DNA of 64,000 nt from the NCBI GenBank assembly GCA_002783405.1, contig PFGG01000064.1, positions 62,001 to 126,000 on the forward strand, given 5' to 3'. This DNA comes from a bacterium (Candidatus Blackallbacteria) CG13_big_fil_rev_8_21_14_2_50_49_14 (lineage in GTDB: Bacteria > Cyanobacteriota > Sericytochromatia > UBA7694). Shown piece by piece: positions 25,301 to 41,004 of the stretch. Both the position numbers and the translations under genes were made by a program. Positions within the stretch are counted from its first letter, which is position 1, and each line of letters starts with the position of its first letter. The notes below the pieces were generated by a model. That model did no database searches. It was not told the origin of the DNA and saw only the letters and a program-made list of their open reading frames with translations.

Positions 25301-26838
25301 GTGCAAATCAGACGGATACTGATAATATCGCCCTGAAGGTCGAACGACCCACTCTGCCCTCTACTTTTGGCGGCAATCCCAACCCCGCAGGAACCATCTT
25401 CAGAGCTGTTTACCAATTTGGCCGTGACAAACTGCCCCAGATAGTGGTCAATGATATCACCGTCAGCGGACCCGAAATTCAAGCCGGTGCCCAGATCGAG
25501 ATCATCCGTTATAACGACAATGATCCAACCACCGCAGCTGATGACAATACGACGGTACTGCGTACGGTTACCTTGAATAACCCCAATACAGCACTTGGTG
25601 AAAGCGTCAGCTTTAACAATCTCACCAACCGGGCCACCGTAACGGTCAACTTCTCTGCGGCGGGATCTCCTGTACTGGCCGTACCTCCAGCCGCTCCGAA
25701 TCTGAAAGACGGTACAGGTAAAATTGGCGGTCGCCTGGTGAATGGGAACGTGGATACGCCGTCCACTTCTTCAGTAACTGCCGCGAATCATCCCTGGTTC
25801 TTCTTTGTCTATCCTGAGCGAGCACAATATGCAGTAGAAGATTATTTATCGGGAGCCAATAACCGGGGCCGCTGGTATTTGATCAATACAAGTACCTCAA
25901 TCGGGGCTGGTTTGGGCAGACTCTCAATGGTCTTCGACTCTAACGGTGCCCTGAATATTCAGAATGGTTTGAACAATACCTCTGATGTAACGGCTGGTTT
26001 AGCCAAGAACCCGATCAATGGCGATGTCTATTATGTCGACCAACAGGGTACTTCGCCGAACTTCAGCGGCCGCCTGATTCGCTGGATTCCTTCTCTTGGG
26101 ATTCAAGACGGGGCAAGCACGGGAGATCCCTTCCTGGTCAGAGGCAACCTCTCGGTCAATAATGGTCTGGGTCTGAGCTATAATTTTGGTGATAAACCCG
26201 CCCGACTGGTCTTTAATTCAACCATCAATGGAGCAACCAAAACAGCGACCCTCTATGCCGGGGCGGCTTACGATACAGTAGATGGTCAAGGCTCTCTCTC
26301 TGGCTTTTACCGGGTTCGCAACTTTGAAAGTGGCACCCCAGCGATAGACCATATTAAATTGATGCTGAATGCTGAAGAATTTGGTCTGAATGTCTCCTAC
26401 CTGAACAATGGCGACTTTGTCTTTGAGCCGGATACAGATAATACTGCTGCGGCCAATAACCGCATGTTCCTGACCAATAACAACAAGCTCTATGTCACCA
26501 CCGCACCTGTACCCGATACAGGCACGGCAGATGTAGCTATTCAGGAGTTGAGTCTCGCAGGGGTTGCCAATACACTGAAATCAGCGGGTGGCACAACAGC
26601 CAATCAGTTGGTGGGCTTGTCTATTGATGGGGAATGGGCTGCAGGAAGCCGTTCTCTGTTGGTGATTGCACGCTATCCTGCCCCGGATGCAAATATTGCC
26701 CGCCTCTATCGTCTGACTTACAGTTCAGCGGATTACTCCATCACCGGAGCAACTCTGCTGGCCAATGGGAATTTTGCTACAGCCAACTATGGCAGTGATA
26801 TCCCACTGGTAGACATCACTGCAGCACACCTGCCCTAA
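19387..26838 (+). CDS. Giant surface lipoprotein with Ig-like and ten tandem beta-type domains
   Basis: Protein of 2483 residues. N-terminal hydrophobic segment ends in MTTAC (Cys30), an imperfect lipobox. Three Big-type Ig-like domains follow (about 60-150, 165-255, 315-400; each has 'D.NG.VKG' turns such as DQNGVLKG), then a run of twelve Gly (about 406-417) and a fibronectin-like domain to about 520. From about 529 to 1988 there are ten tandem domains of 125-155 residues, starting near 529, 670, 798, 940, 1089, 1228, 1383, 1538, 1684 and 1828. Each opens with a motif like PRNLYNNNATF and carries 'LTP.NGTL', 'PGTVTVTGxGTN', 'IxGP..DVNTAL..L.YTP' and 'TDTV...V'. The C-terminal 490 residues differ and contain beta-propeller-like strands (RWYLINTSTS, NGDVYYVDQQG). 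Likely an exposed adhesin or cell-surface filament; this is inference. Confidence 0.88.
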   Translation: MMYSNAPLQRGLKISIQLGLATSLLMTTACGVGGFGVGRNPLGSDARSFITQAAKDIATRNFTGNPDQLRALFLRPMVKGQLTLDDSFPLEVIALDNQGRLIDPLLLKLKFSSAKPGTITVDQNGVLKGVEPFEPVLIKVIDEKSNTSAEVEFTATLTKFTGNPRALASLQLVQRSQVTPGLGEMAQFYIVARDTLGNPIDPTRLQLDWSVSDPNAFAIDKNGLVKALSSNGDAQVIVRDPVSGRIATGTVQNIFSSKNPQTSLPTQTSGNAVTSRPEPIPAGQPGVPVSPVTLSQGETNPLQPPAQNTGTPGNPRSLILTPSLSYLSPGDRVQLAVALTDDQGRPINPATVPLQWTSSDAGLPVDQKGLVSGNYANSETKVTVSVPGTQLSATALVRTYASSSGGGGGGGGGGGGTAVAPTPQILVPATPKTSATPLSTSSFTVKVFPPTFTQTPIVEYQVTIGNAPGSKTFTIPAGAGGTVTADVPAGANLLADTTYPYSVVALGQNGQISPVVNSFGTTLLANNAPTNMIGGSKSFTGVVSVPANTAVSLNDQNGNALSAGDGSNAETLTIKFEPTAGNFGTISFSNNPALPGTVTVTGGGINGNPIQISGPKDAVNTALNNFVYTPQNGFIGNATVTMTAIDTVEGAGTPDDIDTIVFSVNSATPSAPRNLMNNNPSFSTLLTAVNSPITLKPLNNSGLTVEDTNGDTLTTVLTPTNGTLALVSIPAGVTVTGTGTNADPFKLVGPPHFINAALNGGLTLTPTANFNGAATIQMVTTATDGTDTDLLTVNVVAPSNLFNGSNVFPTSAQRMAKAATTTLNGASNKALTVLYPPTSTVKVNLDLQDSAGNNTGAAANGSLTLAGIVPGTVTVTGGGTAALQLQGPIADVNTLLTAGVIYSPQGNNTGTYKLRMNSVDVNNNVLTDTNDVVTLEVSEPPVNKYNNSATSFPPVGAPVELGFNTPLTFASFFGTALSVTDADSATVTTTLTPSNNGTLSRANLNAIPAGVTVTVGTTVASSTNNVSVTATNAQPMVIAGSPTNINLFLNNGIVFSPTTNFSGAATVTMATNDGGATDTDIVHINVLPTPENRRNDNATFTTTAIPAAPGVQENLGTPATRLLTIKNYPSAANVDVTLSVPTGKGTLLLNGFPAPNGTQGGVTFTGNGTTSLSMTGTQANINTALTNLRYTPAAGVVAAPETVTMTMSSTGGTLGDSGDTVPFSISNPPRNIYNTQDGNPVADDTAENASFPSAGARLDIFGNQALILNNTATATQPAVKLDVIDDSSLVTVTLTPANTGGNTNAIIDLTGAAPGTVSNTGAGTNASPRVISGPLADVKTALTLLRYTPQTGFTGATSFDIKVDDGGPSPDTNTVNLNVKVRPQNAFNNNATFPNTNVLIFDFAGIANPLKNDTANSDVNTAPQLHINETVHPLSVLNLSAYTQPTDTATVRLQIPSGVLNVTLSGSVTISAGANGSGDLTLSATGANIPNINTVLGTLTWTPPHLNDGAPLAAPAVLTMTSGPIPDTDTLNLLSTRTPRNLYGGNLVFTTTALQVNEGQQMLFDGGGGHGLVLSVGSQSSETVEDSPQIRVKLIPSLVGGTNSGTVNVTLSGAATKTGSGTNASPLIITGTPVDVNATLATMTFNSTAGVNGSASIAVKTTDFAAEDATGPTADSIVLDIRAKPANRWNVGTGSETNTFPGTGSPINVGLNATFAMNTANNRQLGAKFYQNGDTIDVTLKLSNATHGNLTASSSGGAIVSNSGTDTITIHSTGANSLTDLNAALATLVFNSVNSGGVVDLEMTSTNGTASDSTVGQDVIRFNVQNSTPVNSLTGTTSGFTTGATALPLNLVSDTTTVDDRLDFGQSDPTSAAAGTFTVTGNTWPTLSVSDDDSSVTSTLTPPIFGTLSDRLGTNFAGSGAGIAGSGTNADPFVFTGTPAQINAALLRLRFTPNANVTDGTVGNLVISTKDGANQTDTDNIALKVERPTLPSTFGGNPNPAGTIFRAVYQFGRDKLPQIVVNDITVSGPEIQAGAQIEIIRYNDNDPTTAADDNTTVLRTVTLNNPNTALGESVSFNNLTNRATVTVNFSAAGSPVLAVPPAAPNLKDGTGKIGGRLVNGNVDTPSTSSVTAANHPWFFFVYPERAQYAVEDYLSGANNRGRWYLINTSTSIGAGLGRLSMVFDSNGALNIQNGLNNTSDVTAGLAKNPINGDVYYVDQQGTSPNFSGRLIRWIPSLGIQDGASTGDPFLVRGNLSVNNGLGLSYNFGDKPARLVFNSTINGATKTATLYAGAAYDTVDGQGSLSGFYRVRNFESGTPAIDHIKLMLNAEEFGLNVSYLNNGDFVFEPDTDNTAAANNRMFLTNNNKLYVTTAPVPDTGTADVAIQELSLAGVANTLKSAGGTTANQLVGLSIDGEWAAGSRSLLVIARYPAPDANIARLYRLTYSSADYSITGATLLANGNFATANYGSDIPLVDITAAHLP

Positions 26839-29137: not shown

Positions 29138-30124
29138 TCAGTGCTTGTGAACATAGCTCAGTGGCTCGTTTTGAATGGTTTCCCAGTGTTTTTCAATCCA
29201 GTCACGGGTTTCGTCAATACCGGCCTGAAGTGAAATTTCTGGCTGCCAATTGAGTAAACTGCGCGAATCACTGTCATCAAGCCAGTAATGGGCATCCTGG
29301 CCCAGGCGTTCACCCACTGTTTCAACATGATCTTCCCAGCGCAAGCCTGCACTTTCCAAACTCATGCGCACAATATCTGCGACTGTTTCAGGGCCATTTT
29401 GGGTGAAATGCCAGGTGCGATGCTCGGGATAATTCAGGGTCTTCAGCAGACCTGCAATCACATCTTTGACATGGATGAAGGATTTCTTGGCGGTTCCCCC
29501 CCCATGCAGCTCAATTTTTTTACCCATTCGGGCGTAAATCAGGGTGCGGGGAATAATCTTAAAGAGTTGTTGGTGTTTGCCAAAAACATTGGTAGAGCGA
29601 ATCAGGCTGACAGGGTAATTGAAGTTTTGGCGCAGGGTTTCAAGATACAAATCGGCTGCAAGTTTAGAGACTGCATAGGGAGTGCTGGGACGAAACTCAT
29701 GGCTGTCAGCGCTTTGAGCCCCTTGACAAGAACCGAAAATCTCAGCTGAAGAGATGTGAATATGCCGTTTCAGCCAGGATTTGTCTTTAAGCCAATGGGC
29801 CAGCCGGGCCATGCTTTGGGTATTGGTGGCAAAATATTCAAGCGGTATTTGATGGCTGAGGGCCACTTCACTGAAGGCTGCCACCGTAAAAATCAAGGGG
29901 GGTTGCCACTTGTCCAAGAGCGTAAACAGACTGGCAGGATTGTGTAAATCATTCTGATGAAAAAAGAAATTATCTTTTTCAGGCAGATCTGCATAGGGTA
30001 AATAGAGGGGAGCGTATTCTCTTGAACGGCTGAGGCCATGCACCTCATATCCTGCTTGAAGCAGAGCGGCTACCAAATGGCTGCCTGTAAAACAATTGGA
30101 TCCCAGTACGAGCGCGCGTTGCAT
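29138..30124 (-). CDS. NAD-dependent epimerase/dehydratase (GDP-mannose 4,6-dehydratase-like)
   Basis: Extended short-chain dehydrogenase of 328 residues acting on a nucleotide sugar. The nucleotide-binding loop is LGSNCFTGSHL; family members normally have GxxGxxG, and here Cys takes the place of the middle Gly. The catalytic motif SSAEIFG (Ser/Glu pair as in GMD, where dTDP-glucose dehydratases have TDE) and YAVSK (Tyr and Lys) are intact, as is RSTNVFGKHQQ. It is closer to GMD by the SAEIFG motif, but I cannot exclude another 4,6-dehydratase or epimerase. It stands alone: no glycosyltransferase or sugar-nucleotide gene is next to it. Terminated by the shared hairpin at 29092. Confidence 0.8.
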   Translation of the reverse strand: MQRALVLGSNCFTGSHLVAALLQAGYEVHGLSRSREYAPLYLPYADLPEKDNFFFHQNDLHNPASLFTLLDKWQPPLIFTVAAFSEVALSHQIPLEYFATNTQSMARLAHWLKDKSWLKRHIHISSAEIFGSCQGAQSADSHEFRPSTPYAVSKLAADLYLETLRQNFNYPVSLIRSTNVFGKHQQLFKIIPRTLIYARMGKKIELHGGGTAKKSFIHVKDVIAGLLKTLNYPEHRTWHFTQNGPETVADIVRMSLESAGLRWEDHVETVGERLGQDAHYWLDDSDSRSLLNWQPEISLQAGIDETRDWIEKHWETIQNEPLSYVHKH

Positions 30125-30190
30125 AATGTCTTCCTCCAGGTTTGGGCTGAATTCAGCTTAACCGGCCATGACGGCGATCGTCCAGGAGGA

Positions 30191-30934
30191 TCAGAATTTG
30201 TGAGGGGCGACCAGGCCTCGATCTTCGAGGTAGGTTTGAACGGTCCAATAGATTTCATCCCGCTCCGTGATTCCCAGTTTTTGGTTCACGGCATTTTGAT
30301 GGAGATAGGCACGATCTTCAACGGGATCTCCCCATTCAATCCCTTTGACTTTGTTGTAAATCGTGCCAAAGAGCTTTTCAAAATTGGAAATGACAGGGGT
30401 GTCTTTGGAGTGAACCATTTCATGGATGATCACCGAGGCCTTTTCGGCATCGCGCATTTTCCAGAAACGATCATCGAGTACCATATCGCGAAAATGGAGA
30501 TGGGCAGTGCCTTTTTCGCGGGCAACGGCGACCCAGGCTGCATAGATATCATGTTTGGCAAACAGGTCGTGAATGCCGTCATCAGCCAGGACAAAATCTG
30601 AATCATCCATTTTACGGAGTGCCTTGCCGATCTCAGGATCCACAGCCTCTACGATTTTAAAGGTAGGCTCAAGCGCAGCTTTGATCGAGGCTGGGCGGTT
30701 GGCCTTTGAAACTTGTGGAGTGGTATTGGCTTTGCCTGCCTCTTTGGGGTCAAAGGCGGAGAATAAATTCAAGGGCGCTTGGGGGACACGTGGATCGTGC
30801 TTGAGCTGGCGTTGGAGGGTGTCTTGAACCGTGGGGGCTTGTGCAGGAAGTGTTTTTGCCCGTTGAAGCGCAGGCGCTTGAGGTTTCGTGACTGTTTGAA
30901 GGGGTTGAACTGAAAAATTAATTGCGCCGACCAT
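30191..30934 (-). CDS. HExxH putative metallopeptidase with P/Q/A-rich N-terminal leader
   Basis: Protein of 247 residues without signal peptide. The first 65 or so residues are low in complexity and rich in Pro, Gln, Ala and Thr; the leader has the same layout as the protein at 47702-48349 (LQT.T..P.AP, then QD.L..Q, then a short FS). The C-terminal two-thirds is globular with IIHEMVHSKDTP (H171, E172, H175), a zincin-type site, and a possible third ligand in the acidic segment EWGDPVEDRAYLHQNA, where 'ED.AY' follows the pattern of other Met-zincins. Target unknown. Divergent from the phoD operon across a region with a 16-bp palindrome. Confidence 0.7.
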   Translation of the reverse strand: MVGAINFSVQPLQTVTKPQAPALQRAKTLPAQAPTVQDTLQRQLKHDPRVPQAPLNLFSAFDPKEAGKANTTPQVSKANRPASIKAALEPTFKIVEAVDPEIGKALRKMDDSDFVLADDGIHDLFAKHDIYAAWVAVAREKGTAHLHFRDMVLDDRFWKMRDAEKASVIIHEMVHSKDTPVISNFEKLFGTIYNKVKGIEWGDPVEDRAYLHQNAVNQKLGITERDEIYWTVQTYLEDRGLVAPHKF

Positions 30935-30987
30935 CCTAAAACTCCTTGATGAACCAAATGTATAAAGGTTATATCGTGGTTAATTCC

Positions 30988-31022
30988 TTAACTCTTTCTT
31001 TAATAGTTAAAGAAAGAGTTAA
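30988..31022. promoter_or_regulatory. 16-bp perfect palindrome with 3-base centre between divergent genes
   Basis: TTAACTCTTTCTTTAA, TAG, TTAAAGAAAGAGTTAA. It lies 53 bases before the start of the HExxH gene (minus) and 131 bases before the phoD-like gene (plus). The AT-rich arms and lack of a GC stem make a terminator unlikely; a dimeric or tetrameric repressor site controlling one or both genes is plausible. Confidence 0.6.
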
Positions 31023-31153
31023 ATTTTGGTTAATTAATGATTAATGTTGTCGCTGAGCACTGGACTGACCTGTGCTTTGGATTCGCCATGTGGCATAAAA
31101 TGTTTTACACTGAGACTCAACTGAAGATTGTCTTTTGATTTGGAGGAGCTTAT

Positions 31154-32512
31154 ATGGCACTGAATTTTTTGAAATCCTCCCTCTGGAAAACAGCCCTGAT
31201 CTCTTTGCTTTTTACCTCGCCGGTCTGGGCCGAAGCCGACTTGATTGCCGGTCCAATGGTGGGGCATACGGATACCCGGAGCAGCCAAATCTGGGTTCAA
31301 ACCGATGAACCTGGAAAAGTTCAGATCGAGTATTGGCTAAAAGGCTCTTCTAAATTGATGCGAAGCCCAGAAATGCTGACTTCTGAACAGAGCTGGTATA
31401 CAGCCCTTTTGCCGCTTTCGGGTCTGGAACCCAACCAAAACTACGAATACCGTCTGCTTTTAGATGGGGTGCCGATCAAGAAAGACTATTCCTTGCGTTT
31501 TCATACCCCAATCGAGTGGGCACCGGGTCAAACAGCACCTGATTTTGAAGTCATTACAGGTTCCTGCTATTACGTTAACGATGAATGGATGAAAATGCTG
31601 GGCATCGAATATGGTGGGCCTTTGCAGATTTTTACCACGATGGAAAAACATCCGGCAGACTTTATGCTCTGGTTGGGTGACAATATCTACCTGGCTCCTT
31701 TGGATGTCTCCAACCGCTGGCGCATGAATTCCCGCTATCGCAAACAGCGCTCCCAGACCTTGATTCAGCCTCTTTTAGGCAGAATGCCACAATATGCAAT
31801 TTGGGATGACCATGATTTTGGCCCCAATAATTCGACGAAAAATTTTCCGCTGAAAGATGTTTCGCTTGAATTGTTCAAAGCCTATTGGGCCAATCCCCGC
31901 TATGGGCTATTAACTGAAAACGGCACCTGGTCGCGGTTTCGCTGGAATGATATAGACTTTTTTCTGACCGATGGTCGTTATTATCGCGATGCCTTAAAGG
32001 TGCCTGAAGATCAACGAAGGATGCTGGGCTCCGTTCAAATGGCCTGGCTCAAAAATGAATTGAAGGCCAGCCGCTCTCCCTTTAAGATGGTTGTGGTGGG
32101 TAGCCCTGTTTTTAACCCCTATTATGATGAAAGTTTTGCGATGTACCCGCTGGAGTATCAAGAATTGCTGGAGTTTATCCGCCAGGAAAAAATTGAAGGT
32201 GTTGTCTTTCTTTCAGGTGATCGGCATCACTCAGATTTGCATGTTTTGAAACTGCCCGGTGTGTATACCCTTTATAATTACACCAATTCTCCCCTGACCA
32301 GCTCTCCGACCAAAATCATGAACAGCCAGGAATTGAATGATCCTGAGCGCGTGCCTGGAACGCTTGTAAAAGAACGCAACTATGGGGTTTTAAAATTTTC
32401 GGGGCCCGCAGGCCAACGTGTTTTGACGCTCGAAACCCGAGATGGTTCAGGCAAACTCTTTTGGGCCCACGAGATTAAAGAAGAAGATCTGCGGTTTCAG
32501 CCAACTCCATGA
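31154..32512 (+). CDS. PhoD-like alkaline phosphatase/phosphodiesterase
   Basis: Exported metallophosphoesterase of 452 residues. Signal peptide with cleavage in VWAEA near residue 27; N-terminal fibronectin-like domain (about 35-125; SSQIWVQTDEPGKVQIEYW); then the PhoD core with GSCYYVNDEW, WLGDNIY (Asp-x-Asn), WDDHDFGPNNS (metal-binding Asp and His) and FLSGDRHHSDLH. PhoD enzymes use Ca/Fe and split phosphodiesters and monoesters, releasing phosphate outside the cytoplasm. GGAGGAGC gives a strong ribosome binding site. The stop overlaps the next start (ATGA), so it is coupled to the nucleotide-carrier-like gene, which suggests use of external nucleotides or phosphate. Confidence 0.88.
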   Translation: MALNFLKSSLWKTALISLLFTSPVWAEADLIAGPMVGHTDTRSSQIWVQTDEPGKVQIEYWLKGSSKLMRSPEMLTSEQSWYTALLPLSGLEPNQNYEYRLLLDGVPIKKDYSLRFHTPIEWAPGQTAPDFEVITGSCYYVNDEWMKMLGIEYGGPLQIFTTMEKHPADFMLWLGDNIYLAPLDVSNRWRMNSRYRKQRSQTLIQPLLGRMPQYAIWDDHDFGPNNSTKNFPLKDVSLELFKAYWANPRYGLLTENGTWSRFRWNDIDFFLTDGRYYRDALKVPEDQRRMLGSVQMAWLKNELKASRSPFKMVVVGSPVFNPYYDESFAMYPLEYQELLEFIRQEKIEGVVFLSGDRHHSDLHVLKLPGVYTLYNYTNSPLTSSPTKIMNSQELNDPERVPGTLVKERNYGVLKFSGPAGQRVLTLETRDGSGKLFWAHEIKEEDLRFQPTP

Positions 32513-34065
32513 GAGAGGCTTCGGATTTTGAGCGTTTCTTCAGTTTGGTAACTGGGGCCCGCAAAAATGAACGGCTGAAAACCATTGCCAGTTTTTTGGC
32601 GATGTTTCTTCTGCTTTTGTCCTATTATATGGTCAAGCCCCTTCGTAATTCTCAGTTTCTAAAAGAATTCAATACAGATTATTTGCCTTTTTTCTTTTTG
32701 TTTACTGCTTTCGTCTCTGTGATTGTCACCAAGATTTTCAATTCTTTTTACAATAAAATTGAAGTTTTTCGCCTGGTGGCCTATTCGTTTTTTGTCATGA
32801 TGGCGTGTAAGCTTTGTTTTCATTTCTATTTGCCGGTGGGCGGTAAGACGGCCATTGTCCTGTTCTATATTTTTGCCTCGGTTTATTTTCTTTTGGCGAC
32901 TGCGGTTCTCTGGGGCTGCATCAACTATATCTTTACCTCAGAAGAAGGTGAACGCTGCTACAGTTTTATTGCCATTGGCAGTATGATCGGGGGCCTGGTG
33001 GGTTCTGAGATTTCAGCTGTTTTTTCACGCGGAACGCTCAGAAGTTATGCTTTGGTCTTTTCTGCTTTGGTGATGGGCAGTGTTTTGCTGTTTTTACTCT
33101 TGGCAGTTAAATCCAACCGCTCCCCGCTGCGAAAAAAAACTGAGCGAAAAAACAAATCGGAGCCGCAAGCCGGATTCTTTTCAGACTTTCAGGAAATTTG
33201 GGCCAATCGCTATGTGCGTTCTTTGGCAGTGATGATGTACGCGATTGCAGCCTTTAATACCGTACTTGAGTTTCAAAGCCAGAAACTGATTGATCAGCAT
33301 ATGGCAACCCAGGCCTATCAACAGAATTTTCAATTCCTGGAAAAGGCTTTGATGCAGTCTGGCAAACAGGTTTCAAAGGAGACGGGGTTTGAATTCGTCT
33401 TTGGGCTGAAGGATCAGCCTGAAGCACAGCGACCTGCGCTCATTTCAGCTTTTGTACAAAGCCACGATCTGAATTTGAAACCGGATCTGCTGTTTAAAAC
33501 CTATCTAAGTTACCAGGATAAATTGGAAGCTCAAACCCGCGAAGTTTTCTCAAAAATATATTTGTTTCAAAATATTTTAGGCATTGCTCTGCTCTTTTTC
33601 GTTTCCCGTTGGCTCTTTCAACGGATGGGCGTACGTTTCACGGTTATGATTCTGCCCAGTTTTTATACGGTGGTGATTTTGGCTTTGTTTTTTCCGATCA
33701 ATCTCTTGATGATTGAATCGTTTTTGGTAATTGGATATGGCTTGAATTATTCTTTAAATCGCGCGACCCGCGAACTCTTATTTACAAAAACCAGCGATTC
33801 CACCATTTTCCGACTTAAACCCATGATAGATGGGCCTGTTCGTCGCCTGGGAGATGTGACCATGGCACTTCTTAAACTGGCACTTACGGTTTTCTTTGTT
33901 CAATTCTTACATTTACCCAGTGTGCGGGCTGATCAGATTTTTTTCGTGACCAGCCTCGCGATTTTGGGTTTTTGGATCTACTCTGTCTGGTATGTCGGTG
34001 GACGCTATGACCAACTCAAACGTGAAAGCGCCGCCGGTTTGAACACAGAAAGCGAAGCCGATTAA
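32509..34065 (+). CDS. Npt/Tlc-like (NTP/NDP carrier superfamily) membrane protein
   Basis: Inner-membrane protein of 518 residues with about eleven hydrophobic helices. The opening FLAMFLLLLSYYMVKPLRNSQFL corresponds to the first helix of Tlc/Npt ATP:ADP carriers and their free-living relatives ('SYY..KP.R...'), and GLNYSLNRATRELLFT to the conserved late motif; a soluble insert of about 110 residues (about 245-355) separates the two halves. Obligate intracellular bacteria use Tlc to take up host ATP; relatives in free-living bacteria carry other or unknown substrates. It is translationally coupled (ATGA) to the PhoD-like gene and its end overlaps the convergent cytochrome gene by 4 bases. 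Confidence 0.75.
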   Translation: MREASDFERFFSLVTGARKNERLKTIASFLAMFLLLLSYYMVKPLRNSQFLKEFNTDYLPFFFLFTAFVSVIVTKIFNSFYNKIEVFRLVAYSFFVMMACKLCFHFYLPVGGKTAIVLFYIFASVYFLLATAVLWGCINYIFTSEEGERCYSFIAIGSMIGGLVGSEISAVFSRGTLRSYALVFSALVMGSVLLFLLLAVKSNRSPLRKKTERKNKSEPQAGFFSDFQEIWANRYVRSLAVMMYAIAAFNTVLEFQSQKLIDQHMATQAYQQNFQFLEKALMQSGKQVSKETGFEFVFGLKDQPEAQRPALISAFVQSHDLNLKPDLLFKTYLSYQDKLEAQTREVFSKIYLFQNILGIALLFFVSRWLFQRMGVRFTVMILPSFYTVVILALFFPINLLMIESFLVIGYGLNYSLNRATRELLFTKTSDSTIFRLKPMIDGPVRRLGDVTMALLKLALTVFFVQFLHLPSVRADQIFFVTSLAILGFWIYSVWYVGGRYDQLKRESAAGLNTESEAD

Positions 34066-35075
34066 GACCCCTGTTGACCGCTCATCATGGGCTTGAAGGG
34101 GCCATATTTGTGCTGCTCAGCAGGGAAATTACCAGGCCAGGGTGCAAATGCTGCATCGACCGGTTTTTTGCTGCGATCGGGGAAATCATTTTCCAGGCCC
34201 GATTTCTGAGGACGTTCCAGGCTGTTGATATAGGCAGCCAGGTCAAAGGCCTCTTCGTTGGTTAAATTGGGGGTGCCAAAGGGCATATTGGCTTTGATAT
34301 ATTTGGCTGCTGTGATCACGCGTCCCATGCCCGCCCCATTGTTAAAGCTGTCCTTGCCCCACAATGCCGGATAAAGATAGCCTTCTTCAGGTTTGCTGGC
34401 ATTGGTTGGCAATCCAGCGCCTGTGGGTTGATGGCACATGGCACACTTCGCAGTGTATAGCGCCTTGCCCTTTTCTGGGCTGGCAGCACGCTCGAGAAGT
34501 TCAATATCTGGTAAACCTTGGCCTTCGATTTTGGCCCCTTTGGGAATATCCTGGCTTAACCATTGCATATAGGCCAGGATGGCTTTCATTTCTTTGCTGT
34601 CTTCGGCCAGGGCTTTGCCATTCAGACTGCGTTCAAAACAACCATTGATACGTTCCGAGAGTTTGATCTCACGGTTTTCACGGCCCCGGTAACGGGGGTA
34701 ACGCGCTGTGATTCCCACAAAGCCAAGTGCATTGGCCTGTTTGCCGGCATTTAGGTGGCAACTTTTACAGGATAAATGGTTCCCTGCAATGCGTTTGCTG
34801 GGATCCGCCATTTCTGGGCCCAGGTATTTTGCGGTATGGGTGATAATTTCTTCTCCCCACTTGATTTCTTCTCCAGCTGAACCTTCAGGCAAGGCTGCGG
34901 GCAGTTTCCAGGGAAGCGCTTGGCTGGTTGTGGGGGCTTGTTTTTCTTTTTGTGTGGTTGAATTTTTGGTCTCTGCCTGTTTTGTTTCTTCTTTGGGGGC
35001 GCAGGCCACCAGACTTAAAAACAGGGTGAGACTGATGATCGGTAGGGACTTCGGGATCATTGCCATTTGAAACAT
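34062..35075 (-). CDS. TsdA-like dihaem cytochrome c lipoprotein (thiosulfate dehydrogenase family)
   Basis: Predicted dihaem cytochrome c of about 337 residues, anchored by a lipobox (SLVAC, Cys25) and a Pro/Thr/Lys-rich linker to about residue 60. Haem 1 is CKSCH (C103, C106, H107); haem 2 is CAMCH (C211, C214, H215). RYPRYR followed by RINGCFERSLNGK is a TsdA mark, and Cys146 in it corresponds to the cysteine axial ligand of haem 1 in TsdA. ANMPFG (Met264) is the likely second ligand of haem 2. TsdA enzymes couple two thiosulfate to tetrathionate. Lipid anchoring is unusual for the family. The start may be any of three nearby ATG codons. Three bases separate it from the upstream DUF2490 gene. 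Confidence 0.83.
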   Translation of the reverse strand: MFQMAMIPKSLPIISLTLFLSLVACAPKEETKQAETKNSTTQKEKQAPTTSQALPWKLPAALPEGSAGEEIKWGEEIITHTAKYLGPEMADPSKRIAGNHLSCKSCHLNAGKQANALGFVGITARYPRYRGRENREIKLSERINGCFERSLNGKALAEDSKEMKAILAYMQWLSQDIPKGAKIEGQGLPDIELLERAASPEKGKALYTAKCAMCHQPTGAGLPTNASKPEEGYLYPALWGKDSFNNGAGMGRVITAAKYIKANMPFGTPNLTNEEAFDLAAYINSLERPQKSGLENDFPDRSKKPVDAAFAPWPGNFPAEQHKYGPFKPMMSGQQGS

Positions 35076-35078
35076 AAC

Positions 35079-35774
35079 TTACTCTCCTCCATGTACATCT
35101 TTCGCATAATCAGGGGGCGCAAAGAACAAAAAGAGCATCAAAATATGATCGGCGGTCCAGGTGTTGTCATTGCCCTTACGCCAGCGCTGCATATAGCCCA
35201 TGTCCATTTGCAAGGAACGATCGAACACATGACGAACCCCCAGAATGCTACGATTTTGGTTAAACCCTTGCGGGTACTCGATAAACACCTCGTTGGCAAG
35301 GTAGGGAATCCACGCTTCAGAGAACCCTGTCCAATTTAAACGCAACAGATTGCGTACGCGCCAGTTGGAGCGGGTGGGGAAATAGCGGTATTCAATCCGG
35401 GTGCGATCAATCCATTTCAATTCAGGCATGAATTTGCCCCGAAAAACCGGCTCAATATTGAATCGGTATTCCTGGGTGCTCTTTCCGCCAGGTATGCCTA
35501 CATAAATAATATCTCCCAAAAGCCCCAGCGAAAAGCCAGGGGTAAAATCCCATTGCGGACCCAGACTGAATCTGAGAATTCCCAGCCCGCCATCAAAGCG
35601 TGGGGCCAACTGAGAGACAGTAAAGGTATCAAAGCGAGAGGGCAACCAAATATTTTCTTTTTGTAAAGGAATACGTACATCGACTGCATTCCAAAGCTCT
35701 GTATCAGCATTTGCTGGCAAGTTCAGGGTTGTAAGCATGAAGATTGAAATTATGAGCGTTTTGAGAAAATCCAT
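35079..35774 (-). CDS. DUF2490-like outer-membrane protein
   Basis: Exported protein of 231 residues: signal peptide with cleavage after ANA (about residue 23), then regularly spaced amphipathic beta strands (LGILRFSLGPQW, TRIEYRYFP, RNLLRLNWT, NEVFIEYP, LQMDMGYMQRW), the layout of DUF2490 beta-barrels. It ends in a hydrophobic stretch and an acidic tail. AGGA is 8 bases before the ATG. It is the first gene of a two-gene unit with the TsdA-like cytochrome, so a role in outer-membrane passage or anchoring linked to thiosulfate oxidation is possible, not shown. Confidence 0.75.
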   Translation of the reverse strand: MDFLKTLIISIFMLTTLNLPANADTELWNAVDVRIPLQKENIWLPSRFDTFTVSQLAPRFDGGLGILRFSLGPQWDFTPGFSLGLLGDIIYVGIPGGKSTQEYRFNIEPVFRGKFMPELKWIDRTRIEYRYFPTRSNWRVRNLLRLNWTGFSEAWIPYLANEVFIEYPQGFNQNRSILGVRHVFDRSLQMDMGYMQRWRKGNDNTWTADHILMLFLFFAPPDYAKDVHGGE

Positions 35775-35790
35775 GGTTTAAATCCTAATT

Positions 35791-35832
35791 TACTATACCC
35801 TGTATAGTATATTAATTCGGGGGATTTTGCAA
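35791..35832 (-). promoter_or_regulatory. Promoter with dyad operator over the -10 box (DUF2490-tsdA unit)
   Basis: On the minus strand a -35 box TTGCAA (35827-35832), 17-base spacer and -10 box TACTAT (35804-35809). A perfect 8-bp dyad, TACTATAC-CCT-GTATAGTA at 35791-35809, covers the -10 box and start site. A dimeric repressor bound here would block transcription. The start codon is 17 bases downstream of the dyad. Confidence 0.6.
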
Positions 35833-35974
35833 GTCTTCCTGTTGAAATTGTAGATAACCTAAAATTTACCGCTACTTAATTAAATGTTGCAATAAAGATA
35901 AGAATATTTCACCATTTCTTCACGATATAGAAGATATAAATCAAAATTAATTCGTAGAGAGTGAGACTTTAAAA

Positions 35975-37378
35975 ATGGGAAATATTTCTTCCACAAATAA
36001 TCAACCCTTGGTGAATACCCAGAATCTGCAAAAACCAGCAGCAGCGAAGCCTGAACTGGGCAAAACCACCTTAGAAAAATTCGGAGAAACCAAACTTGGT
36101 ACTTTTTACAAAGACAGCCCCGTACTTTCTGGGGTCGCAACCGGCATCACCGCCTTGGGTGTGGTGGGCTTGGGTCTGAAAAATCATGGACTGGGTGAAT
36201 TGCTTTTCAGCCGGGGAACTGGCGGTATTCTGGCCGGAGGTACTGGCGCGGTTCTACTCGAAGACGGCATTAAAGACATCCGTGAAGGAAGTGAGCTGAA
36301 AGGCAGTATTAAAGCCGGCGTGGGTGGTATTGGGGTGCTCGGCGGAGCTGAACTTTTGACCAAAGTTCCTGTCTTGAGCAAACCTGTTGAAGTGGTATTT
36401 AAAAATGGCTATGCCACAGGTGGTACGGCTTTGGCTGCTGGAGCTGCTTATATGATTAAAGACGGCGTAGAAGATCTCGCCAATGGCGACAAATTAGCGG
36501 GTGGTCTGAAGACGGCTGCTGGTGTCGCTGGTGGACTGGGTGCAACTGAACTGGTGGGCCGTCAATTTGGAAAAAGCCTTATCATTGAGCCCTTGGTCAA
36601 ACTTTCCTCAACCAAGGCTGCTCAAGGTTCTGGAGCGGTTCTCGGTGGAGCAGCCGCAGCAGGCCTGGTCACTGATGGTGCCCAGCGTCTGGCTGAAAAT
36701 GGTTCTTTCTTAAACGATGCTGCGGGTCTGGCTGAAGTCGCTGGTGGCGCACTCTTGGCCACAGGCAGTACCAGTCTGGCTGGACACGCTTTGGGTTCTG
36801 AAGCCCTGAAAACTGTGATGCCCAAAACTGCCAAACAACTCGGTGGCGCAGCCTTGGTTGGCACCTCTTATGTACTGGGCAAAGAAGCCGTTAAAAACCT
36901 AAGTAAAAATGGTGTGACCTATTTGGGCACTGCCGCTGCCACGGGCGCTGCCCTCTCTGCACTGGGTGCAGCTGAAACCTTTGGCGTCAACCGGGCGTTT
37001 AGCAAAGGCGGCCAATTTGCTGCCGCCGCAGGCGTTGGCGTCGCTTCAGGCTTGCTCGCCAAAAGCGCAATTGAAGACTTGAGTGATGGCAAACTGCACG
37101 AAGGCGCGCTGAAAGGTTTTGGCGCAGTCGTGGGCGGTGGCGCAGCTTTGGCTCTGGCCGATGTTCCAGGTGTTCGCCAAGTGGGTGAAAAAGTGCTCAA
37201 GGGCGCATGGGAAGGCGTCATTGCTCCAGTAGGTGAGTTTGCAGTAAAGAATCCCTTGGTGGCAATTCCCTTGGCTGTAGGGGGTGCATATGCCGTCTAC
37301 AAGCTGACCGACAAAGGTGGCAAAGCAGAGCAGGCTGAAGCTCCTCAAGCCGAAGCCAAGCCCGCCACTGAAAAATAA
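35975..37378 (+). CDS. Gly/Ala-rich tandem-repeat protein, unknown
   Basis: Protein of 467 residues with no signal peptide; the first 35 are polar. From about 50 to 440 there are about six repeats of 60-70 residues, each a pair of hydrophobic Gly/Ala segments joined by a polar helix: e.g. LLEDGIKDIREGSELKGSIK, then MIKDGVEDLANGDKLAGGLK, GLVTDGAQRLAENGSFL, VLGKEAVKNLSKNGVTYL, LAKSAIEDLSDGKLHEGALK. The constant part is 'x.xDGxxDL.xGxxLxGxLK.G.GxxGxLGxxEL'. Small-residue spacing is like glycine-zipper membrane proteins. C-terminus Lys/Glu/Ala-rich. Monocistronic with a good terminator. I know no family for it; membrane insertion or compartment-like assembly are both conceivable. Confidence 0.75.
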   Translation: MGNISSTNNQPLVNTQNLQKPAAAKPELGKTTLEKFGETKLGTFYKDSPVLSGVATGITALGVVGLGLKNHGLGELLFSRGTGGILAGGTGAVLLEDGIKDIREGSELKGSIKAGVGGIGVLGGAELLTKVPVLSKPVEVVFKNGYATGGTALAAGAAYMIKDGVEDLANGDKLAGGLKTAAGVAGGLGATELVGRQFGKSLIIEPLVKLSSTKAAQGSGAVLGGAAAAGLVTDGAQRLAENGSFLNDAAGLAEVAGGALLATGSTSLAGHALGSEALKTVMPKTAKQLGGAALVGTSYVLGKEAVKNLSKNGVTYLGTAAATGAALSALGAAETFGVNRAFSKGGQFAAAAGVGVASGLLAKSAIEDLSDGKLHEGALKGFGAVVGGGAALALADVPGVRQVGEKVLKGAWEGVIAPVGEFAVKNPLVAIPLAVGGAYAVYKLTDKGGKAEQAEAPQAEAKPATEK

Positions 37379-37391
37379 AGCTTGAAATCGC

Positions 37392-37426
37392 AGGCCCCGT
37401 TTGTAGAAATACGAACGGGGCCTTTT
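37392..37426 (+). terminator. Rho-independent terminator
   Basis: AGGCCCCGTTTGT / ACGAACGGGGCCT (13-bp stem, one G-T pair) with a 6-base loop, followed by TTT. It begins 13 bases after the stop of the Gly/Ala-rich gene. Confidence 0.88.
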
Positions 37427-37539
37427 GCTGAAAGGGGTTTTTCTGCCTGGATTTCAGGCTGAAGCCTGTGCTATTCTGGACTTGTGACAGTCGCATCATC
37501 TCAAGCAACGATTGCAAGCCAAGCCTGGGGGCAAAAGAA

Positions 37540-39486
37540 GTGAAACTGGTCTTTTATTACCCTTGTGAATTTGCCCATGCCCACGCCACGATCCATGGGC
37601 CGATGGGACTGACCTATATCGCAGCGCATCTTCAAAAAGAACTGGGTGTTGAAGACATCAAGATAGAAGTGGATATTGACAGGGTCATTGCACACAAGCC
37701 TGATCTGGTCGGTGTTTCATCTTATACCCAAACCTATCCCAAAGCCTTGGCCGGAGCTTGGCGGGTCAAAAAAGAATTGGGGGTTCCTGTGATCTTGGGG
37801 GGGCCCCATATGAACGCCATGCCTGAACTTTTTCCTGAAAAGGGCCCCTTTGATCTGGGAGCCTATGGCGAAGGTGAGCATACCTCGGTTGAATTGGTGC
37901 GGCGTTTTCTGCAGGATCGTTGGGAACCCACGCAATTTAAAGATATTCCTGGCCTGGTGTTTTATGATGAGACCCATCAATTGGTGAAAACACCCCGCGC
38001 AGCAGATATTGAAGATCTCGACAGCCTCTGCCTGCCGCGACGGGAATTGCTTGAGGCCTGGTTTCCCAATCATGGCAAAATAGGGCAATGGCGTCAGGGG
38101 CTTTATACCTCTCGGGATTGCCCGTTTCGTTGCCGCTTCTGTATTCACAGCGTGATTCAGGGCATGCCCCGTTACCACAGTGTAGAACGGGTGATCAGTG
38201 AATTGGAGCAGATTATTCGCGAGTACCCACAGCAAAAAATCGTCACCATTTATGACGATATTTTCGTGGTTTCAAAAAAACGACTGATCGAATTGGTTGA
38301 AGGGATTCGGGCGGCGGGTATTCACAAGCGCTTGGGTTTTGTTGCCATGATCAAAACCAGTACCTTTAATGCAGAAATTGCCTTCTTGCTGAAGGATATG
38401 AATGTCAAACTGATTTCTTTTGGCTTTGAAACGGGCAGTGCCGAAGTACTTAAGTATCTGAAGGGCCGGGGGGCCCGTCTCAGCCAGCACCAGGAAGCGC
38501 TTGATATCTGCCGCAATCTGAATTTAAGAACCACTGGCTATTTTATTATGGGCAGCCCGATTGAAAGCTCCCAGGACTTGGCTAAAACCTATTGGTTTAT
38601 TCGCCACAATATTCTGCAATTGCATACCGCAGGTATGTTTTGCCTGATCCCTTTTCCGGGCACCCGTTTTTGGGAAGATTACCGTGAAGTGACGGGCCAT
38701 ACCCCGGATACCTTGGGGTGGGAAGTCTTTGACCATAAATTTATGGATTGGGATGAGGGCTACCCCTTCTTTATTAACCAGCACTATACCCCCGAGTTTT
38801 TGAATTCAGCTTACCGTCAGTTTGCCAAACTGAGGCCTCGTTTGGCCTCAGCTCCGCATTGGGAACGAGAAGAAGAACGCGTGATGGGGTATAAACGCGC
38901 GTTGTATCAATATCTTCAGCCGGTTTTGGCAGCGAATCAAAGTTTGCTTGAAGTTGCCCCTTTTGCCAATTCATATTTTGAATGGAGTATGTTTGATACG
39001 GATCAGGTCAAACTCTTTGCTTTGAATGATCCTGAATCTCTGCTTCCAGAAGTGCCTGGAGCCGCGCTTTATTTTAATCATTGTCTCGAGCTGAAGCCTG
39101 ATCCCCTCTCATTTTTGCGTGAGGTTTTGAGCCAGCATCCCTCACAAGCCCCAGTCTATCTCAGTTTTTACAATGCTCTGTTTTTGCCCTTGCTGCAGCG
39201 TTTGCTTTCGGGTGAAACCCCTGAAGGTTTTTTTGAGCCCCCTTATTGGCTCAATCCAGCCAAGCTTTTTAGTTTAGCCCAAATGCAAAACCTGCTTCGC
39301 GCTGCGGGGCTGGAAATTCTTGAGGTTTATCGCAATCCCCAACCTGTTGAAAATCAATCTGAGTTTTCACGTTTGGTTCCTCCGCTATTGGAACAAATGG
39401 CGCACCCTGATTTGGCCCGCGAGTTCAAGATCTACAGCTATTTTCTGATTTTAAAGCGGGTGGGCATGAGCTTATCTTTAGCCTAA
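37540..39486 (+). CDS. B12-binding radical SAM protein with C-terminal methyltransferase-like remnant
   Basis: Protein of 648 residues. Domains: B12-binding Rossmann domain (about 1-130; VGVSSYTQTYPKA, PVILGGPHMNAMPELFP), radical SAM core (about 170-400) with the CxxxCxxC cluster motif CPFRCRFC, and FGFETGSAEVLKYLKG. From about 450 a third region looks like a class I methyltransferase that has lost its SAM-binding Gly-rich loop: LLEVAPFANSYFEWSMF, then YFNHCLELKPDPLSFLREVL in the place of 'HVLEH..dP..~L~e', and MQNLLRAAGLEILEVYRN as the usual 'L..aGF.i'. The GTG at 37540, with GGGGG upstream, is preferred over the frame from 37468. Such B12-radical SAM enzymes often methylate unactivated carbon or modify lipids and natural products. 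No other biosynthetic gene is adjacent. Confidence 0.85.
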   Translation: MKLVFYYPCEFAHAHATIHGPMGLTYIAAHLQKELGVEDIKIEVDIDRVIAHKPDLVGVSSYTQTYPKALAGAWRVKKELGVPVILGGPHMNAMPELFPEKGPFDLGAYGEGEHTSVELVRRFLQDRWEPTQFKDIPGLVFYDETHQLVKTPRAADIEDLDSLCLPRRELLEAWFPNHGKIGQWRQGLYTSRDCPFRCRFCIHSVIQGMPRYHSVERVISELEQIIREYPQQKIVTIYDDIFVVSKKRLIELVEGIRAAGIHKRLGFVAMIKTSTFNAEIAFLLKDMNVKLISFGFETGSAEVLKYLKGRGARLSQHQEALDICRNLNLRTTGYFIMGSPIESSQDLAKTYWFIRHNILQLHTAGMFCLIPFPGTRFWEDYREVTGHTPDTLGWEVFDHKFMDWDEGYPFFINQHYTPEFLNSAYRQFAKLRPRLASAPHWEREEERVMGYKRALYQYLQPVLAANQSLLEVAPFANSYFEWSMFDTDQVKLFALNDPESLLPEVPGAALYFNHCLELKPDPLSFLREVLSQHPSQAPVYLSFYNALFLPLLQRLLSGETPEGFFEPPYWLNPAKLFSLAQMQNLLRAAGLEILEVYRNPQPVENQSEFSRLVPPLLEQMAHPDLAREFKIYSYFLILKRVGMSLSLA

Positions 39487-39616
39487 GCAAATTATCCCCA
39501 GTCTAAACTGATTAAAGAAAATTCAAACTCTGTTCAAGAAATGACTAAACCCTGCAAGCTTTGGTCATGCTGGCGCTATAACCTTCTTATCAAAAGCGTA
39601 ATTGAGGTAGAGAAAA

Positions 39617-40426
39617 ATGACTGAGATTAAAATCGGAAATGCAAGTTTAAGCGTTGAAGGCATTCGCCCCCTGAAAAAAGATGTTCAAGTCGATGAAAAA
39701 CTGAAAAATCAATTGGCCAAAGATGGCTTTGATTCCATTATCTTCAAAAAAGGCGACGAACTTTTCATTGCCTATCAAAAAAATATGAAGCTCGATGATT
39801 TGAAATTGAATCTGGATGTCAACACCTTTGATGTCAATTCTGCCTATGATGCAGGCCAACTGTCTGTAGACGGCGATGCCGTTCAGGTTTTGCATGTCGA
39901 TGATGAAAACAGAGATTCTTTCTGGGTTGCACCCTATAAAACCGCAGCCAGCGGTGTGAAGAGCCTGATCAACCATCCCTTTGGTAAATCTGCCATTCTG
40001 GGTTTTGTCGGGGGTGTGGTGACTTCAGTGGCGGGTCAGCATCTCAATATTGAAAAAAGTTACAAAACAAATTACAATGGTGCTCCAGTGAATCCCTCTC
40101 AGTACCGTATCTTTATGGGTACCTTGCTGGGGACTGCCGGTGGTGCAGTAGCGGGTGGTCTGAAAGCCGGTGCAGAACACAATGAACCTAAATTCTGGGA
40201 TACGGGTGCTGGGATTGGCACTGCTGCCGTCGGTTATGGCGCTGGTGCCTTGGCGGGTTGGGGTGGAAATGCCCTGGTCAATGTGGCCAAAGAAAATCCC
40301 AAAGTAACGGCAATGGCCGTAGGGGTTGCTGCTGTTGTGATTGGCACAGGTATTGCCTTGGATGCCATGTCAGACAACAACAAACCTGCTACCTACCGCG
40401 TGATCAATCAAATCTCTCAAAAATAG
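39617..40426 (+). CDS. Gly-rich protein with polar N-terminal domain, unknown
   Basis: Protein of 269 residues. Residues 1-105 form a soluble domain of alternating strands and helices (IKIGNASLSVEGIRPLKK, DGFDSIIFKKGDELFIAYQK); the rest has four hydrophobic Gly/Ala segments (FVGGVVTSVAG, LLGTAGGAVAGGLKAGA, GIGTAAVGYGAGALAG, MAVGVAAVVIGTGIALDAM) of glycine-zipper kind. No signal peptide. The start follows TAGAG within a weak SD (GAGGTAGAG). The protein ends at a good terminator, so it is monocistronic. Shares style with 35975-37378 and 51405-52295, not clear sequence identity. Confidence 0.7.
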   Translation: MTEIKIGNASLSVEGIRPLKKDVQVDEKLKNQLAKDGFDSIIFKKGDELFIAYQKNMKLDDLKLNLDVNTFDVNSAYDAGQLSVDGDAVQVLHVDDENRDSFWVAPYKTAASGVKSLINHPFGKSAILGFVGGVVTSVAGQHLNIEKSYKTNYNGAPVNPSQYRIFMGTLLGTAGGAVAGGLKAGAEHNEPKFWDTGAGIGTAAVGYGAGALAGWGGNALVNVAKENPKVTAMAVGVAAVVIGTGIALDAMSDNNKPATYRVINQISQK

Positions 40427-40454
40427 TTTTTAGTTTCCACTCTCTCATTACGCT

Positions 40455-40486
40455 GCCCGTGGTTTTTACCACGGGCTTTTTGTTTT
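40455..40486 (+). terminator. Rho-independent terminator
   Basis: GCCCGTGGT, TTTT loop, ACCACGGGC followed by TTTTTGTTTT; begins 28 bases after the stop of the Gly-rich gene. The next gene on the other strand ends at 40492. Confidence 0.95.
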
Positions 40487-40491
40487 GAGCT

Positions 40492-41004
40492 TTAATGAAT
40501 CCAATGGTGGATCTGGCCGAGAAAAGAACGGCCATCGCCATTTTTGATCCCTTTCTGAGCTGAACGCAAAACCTGACGCAGGGCCTGGCGAACATCGCCC
40601 CGCCCAAAATCACGCAGACTGAGTTCCAGCCGCAAGACGGCTTGAAGGGTGCCTGCCAAACCCGATTGCGGGGGTTCGGGTTTAAGCGAAAGCACTTCGA
40701 GGGCTGTGACCGCATCTTGATCCCGCAGGCCATGGTTGCTCATATGATCCTGCAATGCGAGTATAAATTCGATGCTGGTGACCAAGCCCTGCAGGGCTTC
40801 TTGCGAAGCGGGTTTTTGTTCTAAATAGAGGTTCTCAAGCGGCAATAAACCATAACGTAAATTATCAGGGCAAACCACTTGATCCGCGAGTAAGCCTGTG
40901 CCCTCTTGGCTGAGCAGACCCATGGCATAGGATTGACTGGCTTTTGCAGGGGGGGAGAAGAGACCTTTTTCAGTCAGGGTATTGAGTAAAGCTGAATCTG
41001 ACAT
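40492..41004 (-). CDS. Hypothetical protein beside response regulator
   Basis: Soluble, probably all-helical protein of 170 residues that I do not recognise. It lies 20 bases downstream of the OmpR-type regulator, so they are likely co-transcribed. Its segments LLTEKGLF-like start (MSDSALLNTLTEKGLF) and the mid part ENLYLEQKPASQEALQGL, with LRLELSLRDFGRGDVRQALR, give no motif for kinase or phosphatase. It could serve as a partner of the regulator, but this is only context. Confidence 0.6.
   Translation of the reverse strand: MSDSALLNTLTEKGLFSPPAKASQSYAMGLLSQEGTGLLADQVVCPDNLRYGLLPLENLYLEQKPASQEALQGLVTSIEFILALQDHMSNHGLRDQDAVTALEVLSLKPEPPQSGLAGTLQAVLRLELSLRDFGRGDVRQALRQVLRSAQKGIKNGDGRSFLGQIHHWIH

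Follow-up and report, generated by a model that had tools for sequence, protein, structure and literature searches.

We examined a 64,000-nucleotide stretch of the genome of Candidatus Blackallbacteria CG13_big_fil_rev_8_21_14_2_50_49_14 (GenBank assembly GCA_002783405.1, contig PFGG01000064.1, positions 62,001 to 126,000), hereafter the window, in which a gene for a PhoD-type phosphoesterase is directly followed by a gene for a membrane carrier resembling the nucleotide carriers of the NTT (Tlc/Npt) family. Two forward open reading frames (ORFs) were verified, at 31154..32512 (452 aa) and 32509..34065 (518 aa). They share the four bases ATGA at 32509..32512 on the + strand, with the carrier's ATG starting at 32509 and the phoD stop TGA ending at 32512. 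As exact 4-base overlaps were found in 3 of the 34 same-strand neighbour pairs on a crude gene list of the window, this pair included, the overlap is ordinary and alone tells little about function. Taken together, the shared strand and the overlap imply that phoD and the carrier gene are probably carried on a single transcript. By eye, a ribosome-site-like GGAGGAG lies upstream of phoD and no such site was seen at the usual spacing upstream of the carrier gene, making translational coupling of the carrier to phoD plausible. The G+C content is 0.43 for the carrier gene, 0.472 for phoD and 0.487 for the window.

A PhoD-type phosphoesterase with counterparts of seven metal ligands

The first gene (31154..32512, + strand) encodes, according to Pfam, alignment and a structure model, a PhoD-type phosphoesterase of 452 aa with an N-terminal DUF7800. 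Its product matched PF09423 at 1.1e-19 (71.2 bits, cut-off 27) and PF25077 at 1.5e-13, above the curated cut-off, and missed the cut-off of the NCBIfam PhoD equivalog, reaching 22.3 of 1000 bits. In PhoD of B. subtilis, changes of the ligands C180, D207, D265, D266, N271, N272 and D436 are described as abolishing or drastically cutting activity (PMC4223295). Their counterparts in the window enzyme are C138, D176, D218, D219, N225, N226 and D356, so that all seven metal ligands are present; the mapping used a pairwise alignment with an inferred numbering shift of 56, except that D176 was placed by motif. The ligand motifs are kept in eight PhoD homologues, apart from the second Asn, which is Asp in three, and the first Asn, which is Asp in one. 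A candidate Sec-like signal peptide was noted by eye at the N-terminus. The predicted structure (predicted local distance difference test score, pLDDT, 84.5) has 2yeq as its best solved match, with a Z-score of 32.9, followed by purple acid phosphatases from 31.7 down. An earlier note, made from the sequence alone, had described two genes with a 4-base overlap, the first of them PhoD-like. Both points were borne out, the former by the coordinates and the shared ATGA, and the latter by PF09423 and PF25077, the metal ligands and the top-ranking structure.

The carrier has the NTT fold and lacks most functional NTT residues

By profile, model and tree, the second gene (32509..34065, + strand) encodes a 12-helix NTT-fold carrier of 518 aa that belongs to a non-canonical clade. 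On its own, the window carrier had no match to the TLC/NTT models including PF03219, even at E-values up to 1, and its only match, to MFS_1, fell below the cut-off of that model. Likeness emerged at the level of the family: at E-values up to 1, seven of eight aligned carrier homologues matched PF03219 (TLC; best 1.3e-8; a canonical NTT protein, for comparison, scores 518 bits), and a profile built from the 8-row alignment of the carrier family found Arabidopsis NTT1 (AtNTT1) as the best solved structure (2.8e-12), with NTT1 of Chlamydia pneumoniae (CpNTT1) at 7.5e-4. An AlphaFold2 model generated from the 8-row alignment had a mean pLDDT of 87.7, and Foldseek placed all five NTT entries in the first five rows. 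In a second structural comparison, AtNTT1 (9j3m) reached a Z-score of 37.5 (root-mean-square deviation, rmsd, 3.0 over 414 aligned residues, about 15% identity). Three other NTT entries scored 32.9, 31.1 and 30.9, and the fifth scored 27.2, just below the best non-NTT match, LacY (27.6). The Foldseek result, the ranking by Z-score and the family profile together indicate that the likeness to nucleotide carriers is right at fold level, and the carrier, as modelled, has the NTT (Tlc/Npt) fold known from the ATP/ADP carriers of Chlamydia and of chloroplasts.

K155, E245, E385 and K527 of AtNTT1 are reported as functionally important charged residues (PMC4256464, PMC3306366). Among the AtNTT1 mutants described, K155E bound neither ADP nor ATP, K527E did not bind ATP, and E245K kept binding and nearly lost exchange (PMC3306366); these residue roles rest on older mutant data. 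An inferred numbering shift of 84 puts the four names on K, E, E and K of the solved chain. We compared the sites in a 57-row alignment, for which fusion-size and badly started frames were trimmed by hand. Only one of the four residues is kept in the window carrier, namely E254 in the column of E385 (33268..33270, + strand, as are the following sites). The column of K155 is occupied by F63 (32695..32697), that of E245 by S124 (32878..32880) and that of K527 by D449 (33853..33855); all four sites were placed by alignment, and D449 by profile as well. All four residues are present in the three canonical rows, namely the ADP,ATP carrier of a Candidatus Megaera plasmid, AtNTT1 and CpNTT1. Furthermore, the replacements extend to the clade of 20 carriers that includes the window protein (see below). 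Here K or R is found in none of the 20 rows at the K155 column and in one of 20 within four columns; E or D is found in 0 of 20 at the E245 column, and also in none within four columns. At the K527 column no row has K or R, nor does any within two columns, and Asp (19 rows) or Asn (one row) stands in its place. The E385 column, on the other hand, has E or D in 18 of 20. In the alignment, it is the combination of Ser, Ala or Thr for E245 with Asp for K527 that marks the clade and its short relatives. A motif K43-x-x-R46 in the first transmembrane helix (TM1; 32635..32646, + strand), aligned with R133 and K136 of AtNTT1, is invariant among the clade rows that cover this stretch. The polar residues invariant across the clade are Y39, Y40, K43, R46, Y126, W135, E422, K437, R446 and W489.

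In addition, model and alignment delimit a clade-specific insert between TM7 and TM8 at residues 275-318 (33331..33462, + strand), in which AlphaFold2 predicted three short helices. From the E385 column to a glycine in TM8 we counted 87-105 residues in the 20 clade rows, 101 in the window carrier and 29 in AtNTT1, that is, 58-76 residues more than AtNTT1 across the clade and 72 more in the window carrier. The same stretch has 27-46 residues in 36 of the 37 other rows and 66 in the remaining one, which is of fusion size. Given the usual MFS topology and the richness in Lys and Arg of the loop on the opposite side (202-233), the insert probably lies outside the cytoplasm.

A separate clade of NTT-fold carriers

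The 20-row clade, supported at 100/100 and with a stem of 1.26, consists of the window carrier, seven copies in genomes of the same family and 12 copies in seven other genomes, recorded as Eremiobacterota, Cloacimonadota or simply bacterium. It sits in a 29-row group (99/97) together with nine short carriers, with which it has Asp at the K527 column in common. The opposite side of the tree holds the canonical NTTs, the carriers keeping Lys527 and the fusions with further domains. A topology constrained to unite the clade with the three canonical rows was rejected, with a log-likelihood 41.8 lower and a p-value of 0.00018 in the approximately unbiased (AU) test. These results place the carrier in a separate, uncharacterised clade, as far as sequence comparison can tell, and not in the characterised Tlc/Npt clade. 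Sequences left out of the tree were the duplicates L109, L110, L115 and L117, L132 (no match), L137 (match in two frames), L139 and L140 (added after alignment), and, for brevity, L128 and the fusion-size L076, L078 and L080.

With K155, E245 and K527 replaced, an insert acquired and a separate clade formed, canonical ATP/ADP exchange appears unlikely. We therefore favour, at a probability of roughly 0.6, a reading that combines the two protein identities with a carrier that does not exchange ATP and ADP by the canonical mechanism. The nucleotide-carrier-like label of the earlier note held for the fold and for the family-level profile, and did not extend to the window protein itself, which has no TLC match and belongs to a separate clade. 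That note had pointed to the Lys and Glu of the ATP/ADP site and to a tree with Tlc/Npt as the places where a nucleotide carrier would reveal itself. Three of the four residues proved to be replaced (F, S and D, with only E385 kept), and the carrier falls into a clade without characterised members, so that both comparisons largely speak against a Tlc/Npt-type function.

Several observations weigh against this reading. K155 is likewise missing from 10 of the 16 Lys527-keeping rows and from all eight fusions; its loss is thus not special to this clade. Two microsporidian NTTs are reported to deviate at three of the four sites, with the right residues three or four places off (PMC4256464). One carrier, L099, has Asp at the K527 column and yet falls outside the 29-row group. 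Finally, the tree holds only three canonical rows and has long branches, and the 20-row clade was defined only once the tree was in hand, which weakens the AU test.

Distribution of the clade

The clade is present in all five genomes of the window's family and in none of the 13 others of the class, one of which (G010) has solely a frame of fusion size (1,073 aa). At a threshold of 1e-4, PF03219, a model that fails to detect some members of the clade, the one in G002 among them, matched 11 of 339 genomes of the phylum. The matching frames either belonged to the clade (516 and 536 aa) or had the length of the fusions (941-1,072 aa), and no canonical single-domain NTT was found among the 339 genomes by this search. 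Fusion-size relatives thus occur both in the phylum and in the genome under study, which has three copies from the clade and a single NTT-like frame of fusion size. The latter is a 1,046-aa frame on contig C9 (L053:1708-4848) whose N-terminal part is NTT-like and in which parts similar to HEAT repeats and to a cyclic-nucleotide-binding domain were noted by eye; it resembles the NTT-HEAT-cNBD fusions presented in PMC5381601. A recent duplication of a present paralogue was rejected as the origin of the window carrier, the other two clade copies of the genome being 45% identical to it. A contig scan with the single carrier sequence returned 153 pattern stretches with no relative among them, a scan with the carrier alignment returned 17 loci, and viral contigs searched with the Megaera NTT yielded no relative. 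A genome labelled 'Deltaproteobacteria' (G348; locus L074 and others) has six NTT-like genes, seen as 12 matches of two halves each.

The pairing with phoD is not conserved

The surroundings of the pair fall into two blocks. The left block (29138..32512), comprising an epimerase-like gene, the gene at 30191-30934 and phoD, is found jointly on one contig of another genome of the same genus (G001), with identities of 79%, 70% and 66%, respectively. The right block (34062..41004), six genes from a cytochrome c gene onward, is found jointly on another G001 contig, with 68-93% identity. In G001, phoD retains both upstream neighbours and is not followed by the carrier, whose place is taken by an unrelated convergent ORF; the two carriers of G001 pair with the other two paralogues of the genome under study (support 100/99 each). 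A PhoD profile had no match at 39 other carrier loci, which represent 36 distinct places (three duplicated), include the canonical Megaera locus and have flanks of usually 3-5 kb per side, down to 22 bases at contig ends. From G001 and these 39 loci, the pairing of phoD and carrier is not conserved and is, as far as seen, species-specific. Of the argument that the earlier note drew from the pair, adjacency stands and conservation does not, the pair being absent even within the genus.

The position of the carrier at the junction of the two blocks raises two alternatives. One is that the junction of phoD and carrier is an assembly artefact, as the presence of its left and right neighbours on different contigs in G001 might suggest. 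We regard this as highly improbable: the carrier frame is intact and has 4-base overlaps with both its neighbours, which a false join would hardly produce, and the contig measures 373,569 bases. The other, which is possible though not the explanation we prefer, is that the carrier moves an unrelated solute (a vitamin, cofactor precursor, sugar acid or similar), that PhoD separately supplies phosphate and that their adjacency is a by-product of rearrangement. The absence of the pair in G001 and the junction itself agree with this, as does the position of phoD in G002 and G004, where it follows a GDSL lipase gene. The neighbours of the other carrier copies vary likewise (ECF S-component, DNA glycosylase, oxidoreductases) and suggest no common substrate. 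Such independence is harder to reconcile with the shared strand and 4-base overlap, hence probably one transcript, and with the signal of auxotrophy described below, which gives a reason for nucleotide-related uptake.

Some further features of these loci were recorded. A gene for an ECF transporter S-component lies upstream of five carrier copies (L067:4379-4981, with homologues in L068-L071), in records labelled Eremiobacterota or bacterium; PF12822 was run on L067 only. Directly upstream of the carrier in four other genomes is a long homologous gene of 1,322-1,593 aa (L061:180-4961, L141:1-3969, L142:6205-10500 and L143:2065-6717; cut in L141 and L142), with at best a sub-threshold ABC1-kinase likeness on the C-terminal side. 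A Fapy-DNA-glycosylase gene is downstream of two carrier copies, and an oxidoreductase-type gene adjoins the carrier in four of five annotated plasmid copies, a sixth record being without annotation. Within the window, a TTAA-rich near-perfect palindrome at 30988-31022 occupies the divergent promoter region upstream of phoD; it is only partly kept in G001 and was considered as an operator and not used. The window also contains a 2,483-aa ORF at 19387-26838 with no Pfam match at 1e-3 and a 981-aa ORF at 59748-62693 with a DUF4815 match.

Nucleotide biosynthesis genes without a match suggest a possible need for scavenging

The genome, of 5.65 Mb and 95.99% complete, had no match to purH or pyrB, while the same searches were positive in 13 of 14 and 14 of 14 control genomes, respectively. 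In about one-third of the genome, E. coli queries for 17 genes of de novo purine and pyrimidine synthesis gave no true match. The single match at 1e-6, to purF, was a GlmS-like protein with SIS and glutamine-amidotransferase parts and was rejected as purF; weaker matches to carA, purD and purF were short, the carA one coinciding with a partial guaA match. In the same one-third sample, nine of 22 other queries matched (the partial guaA match left out; some of those counted, such as mgtA and ppiB, match at family level only), a difference from the de novo queries with a Fisher p of 0.0023, which is indicative only, as the test ignores operon linkage. Genes for uracil phosphoribosyltransferase (PF14681), CTP synthase and adenylosuccinate lyase are present. 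The lack of matches was unexpected, the de novo pathways having been expected to be present. These results suggest that the genome may not encode de novo synthesis of purines and pyrimidines, i.e., a possible nucleotide auxotrophy. They support a need to obtain bases, nucleosides or nucleotides from outside, and bear on this need rather than on any one carrier.

This need, together with the NTT fold, the kept basic pair in TM1 and the kept E385, as well as the three clade copies and the fusion-size NTT-like gene in a genome without matches to purH and pyrB, could be taken to mean that the carrier imports nucleotides (ATP/ADP, other nucleoside tri- or diphosphates, or NAD) by a rewired site and, with PhoD, scavenges nucleic acids or nucleotides from cells that are dead or attached. 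We consider this unlikely, given the clade-wide replacement of K155, E245 and K527, the separation of the canonical NTTs from the clade in the tree and the absence of PhoD beside the carrier elsewhere. Scavenging as proposed in the earlier note is supported in general, by the lack of matches to purH and pyrB and by the one-third sample, but not in the form of nucleotide uptake by a canonical ATP/ADP carrier, to which the clade, the three replaced residues of four and the unconserved pair are opposed.

A possible division of labour and its implications

Under the favoured reading of a PhoD-type enzyme next to a non-canonical carrier, PhoD would cut phosphate esters outside the cytoplasm, and the NTT-fold carrier in the inner membrane would move some small solute that is neither ATP nor ADP. 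The carrier retains the basic pair K43/R46 along with K437 and R446, and D449 and E254 occupy the places of K527 and E385 of NTT1. In view of the possible auxotrophy, the solute could be a nucleotide breakdown product (a nucleoside, base or monophosphate), with phosphate taken off beforehand by PhoD; this choice of substrate is our best guess, of low probability by itself. A still bolder and correspondingly less likely proposal is that an NTT-fold clade, found in Sericytochromatia as well as in genomes that carry the labels Cloacimonadota and Eremiobacterota, gave up ATP/ADP exchange and came to import products of nucleotides that are dephosphorylated or monophosphates. It would have done so through lost lysines and an outside helical lid, feeding an auxotrophic large-genome relative of Cyanobacteria and wired here to a substrate-preparing PhoD. 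The lysines on the phosphate side would then have given way to uncharged residues and a carboxylate.

NTT carriers are often taken as a sign of intracellular life. The occurrence in multi-megabase genomes of an NTT-fold clade without most of the functional residues cautions against inferring energy parasitism from family likeness, and the clade lends itself as a natural experiment on the residues that determine NTT specificity. Should the lack of purine and pyrimidine genes be confirmed, a sister lineage of Cyanobacteria that does not photosynthesize would rely on other cells for its nucleotides in spite of a 5.65-Mb genome, and feeding on or beside other cells would become directly testable.

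Comparison with known systems

The window enzyme has its fold in common with B. subtilis PhoD (2yeq; PMC4223295), with an rmsd of 3.1 over 400 aligned residues at the Z-score of 32.9, and has counterparts of its seven metal ligands at an identity of 19%. With the NTT/Tlc/Npt carriers (PF03219; AtNTT1, 9j3j/9j3l/9j3m; C. pneumoniae NTT1, 9j3n/9j3o), the window carrier shares the 12-helix fold (Z-scores up to 37.5), E385, the basic pair of TM1, R133/K136 there corresponding to K43/R46, and a weak sequence likeness visible at family level. It differs from them in having F, S and D for K155, E245 and K527, and in that the window protein itself has no match to the TLC model. A wide NTT diversity in free-living bacteria, cyanobacterial fusions included, has already been published (PMC5381601). 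The NTT-HEAT and NTT-HEAT-cNBD fusions described there in Cyanobacteria and others (Major et al. 2017) have the NTT-like domain in common with the window carrier, whereas their frames span about 940-1,070 aa against 518 and they form a separate group in the tree (100/98). The nearest relatives outside the clade (99/97) are short 'GD' carriers, annotated as MFS transporters, on plasmids of free-living Pseudomonadota. Like the window carrier, they have Ser in place of E245 and Asp in place of K527; unlike it, they lack the TM7-TM8 insert (27-29 residues versus 101), have mostly Tyr at the E385 column and lie beside different neighbour genes.

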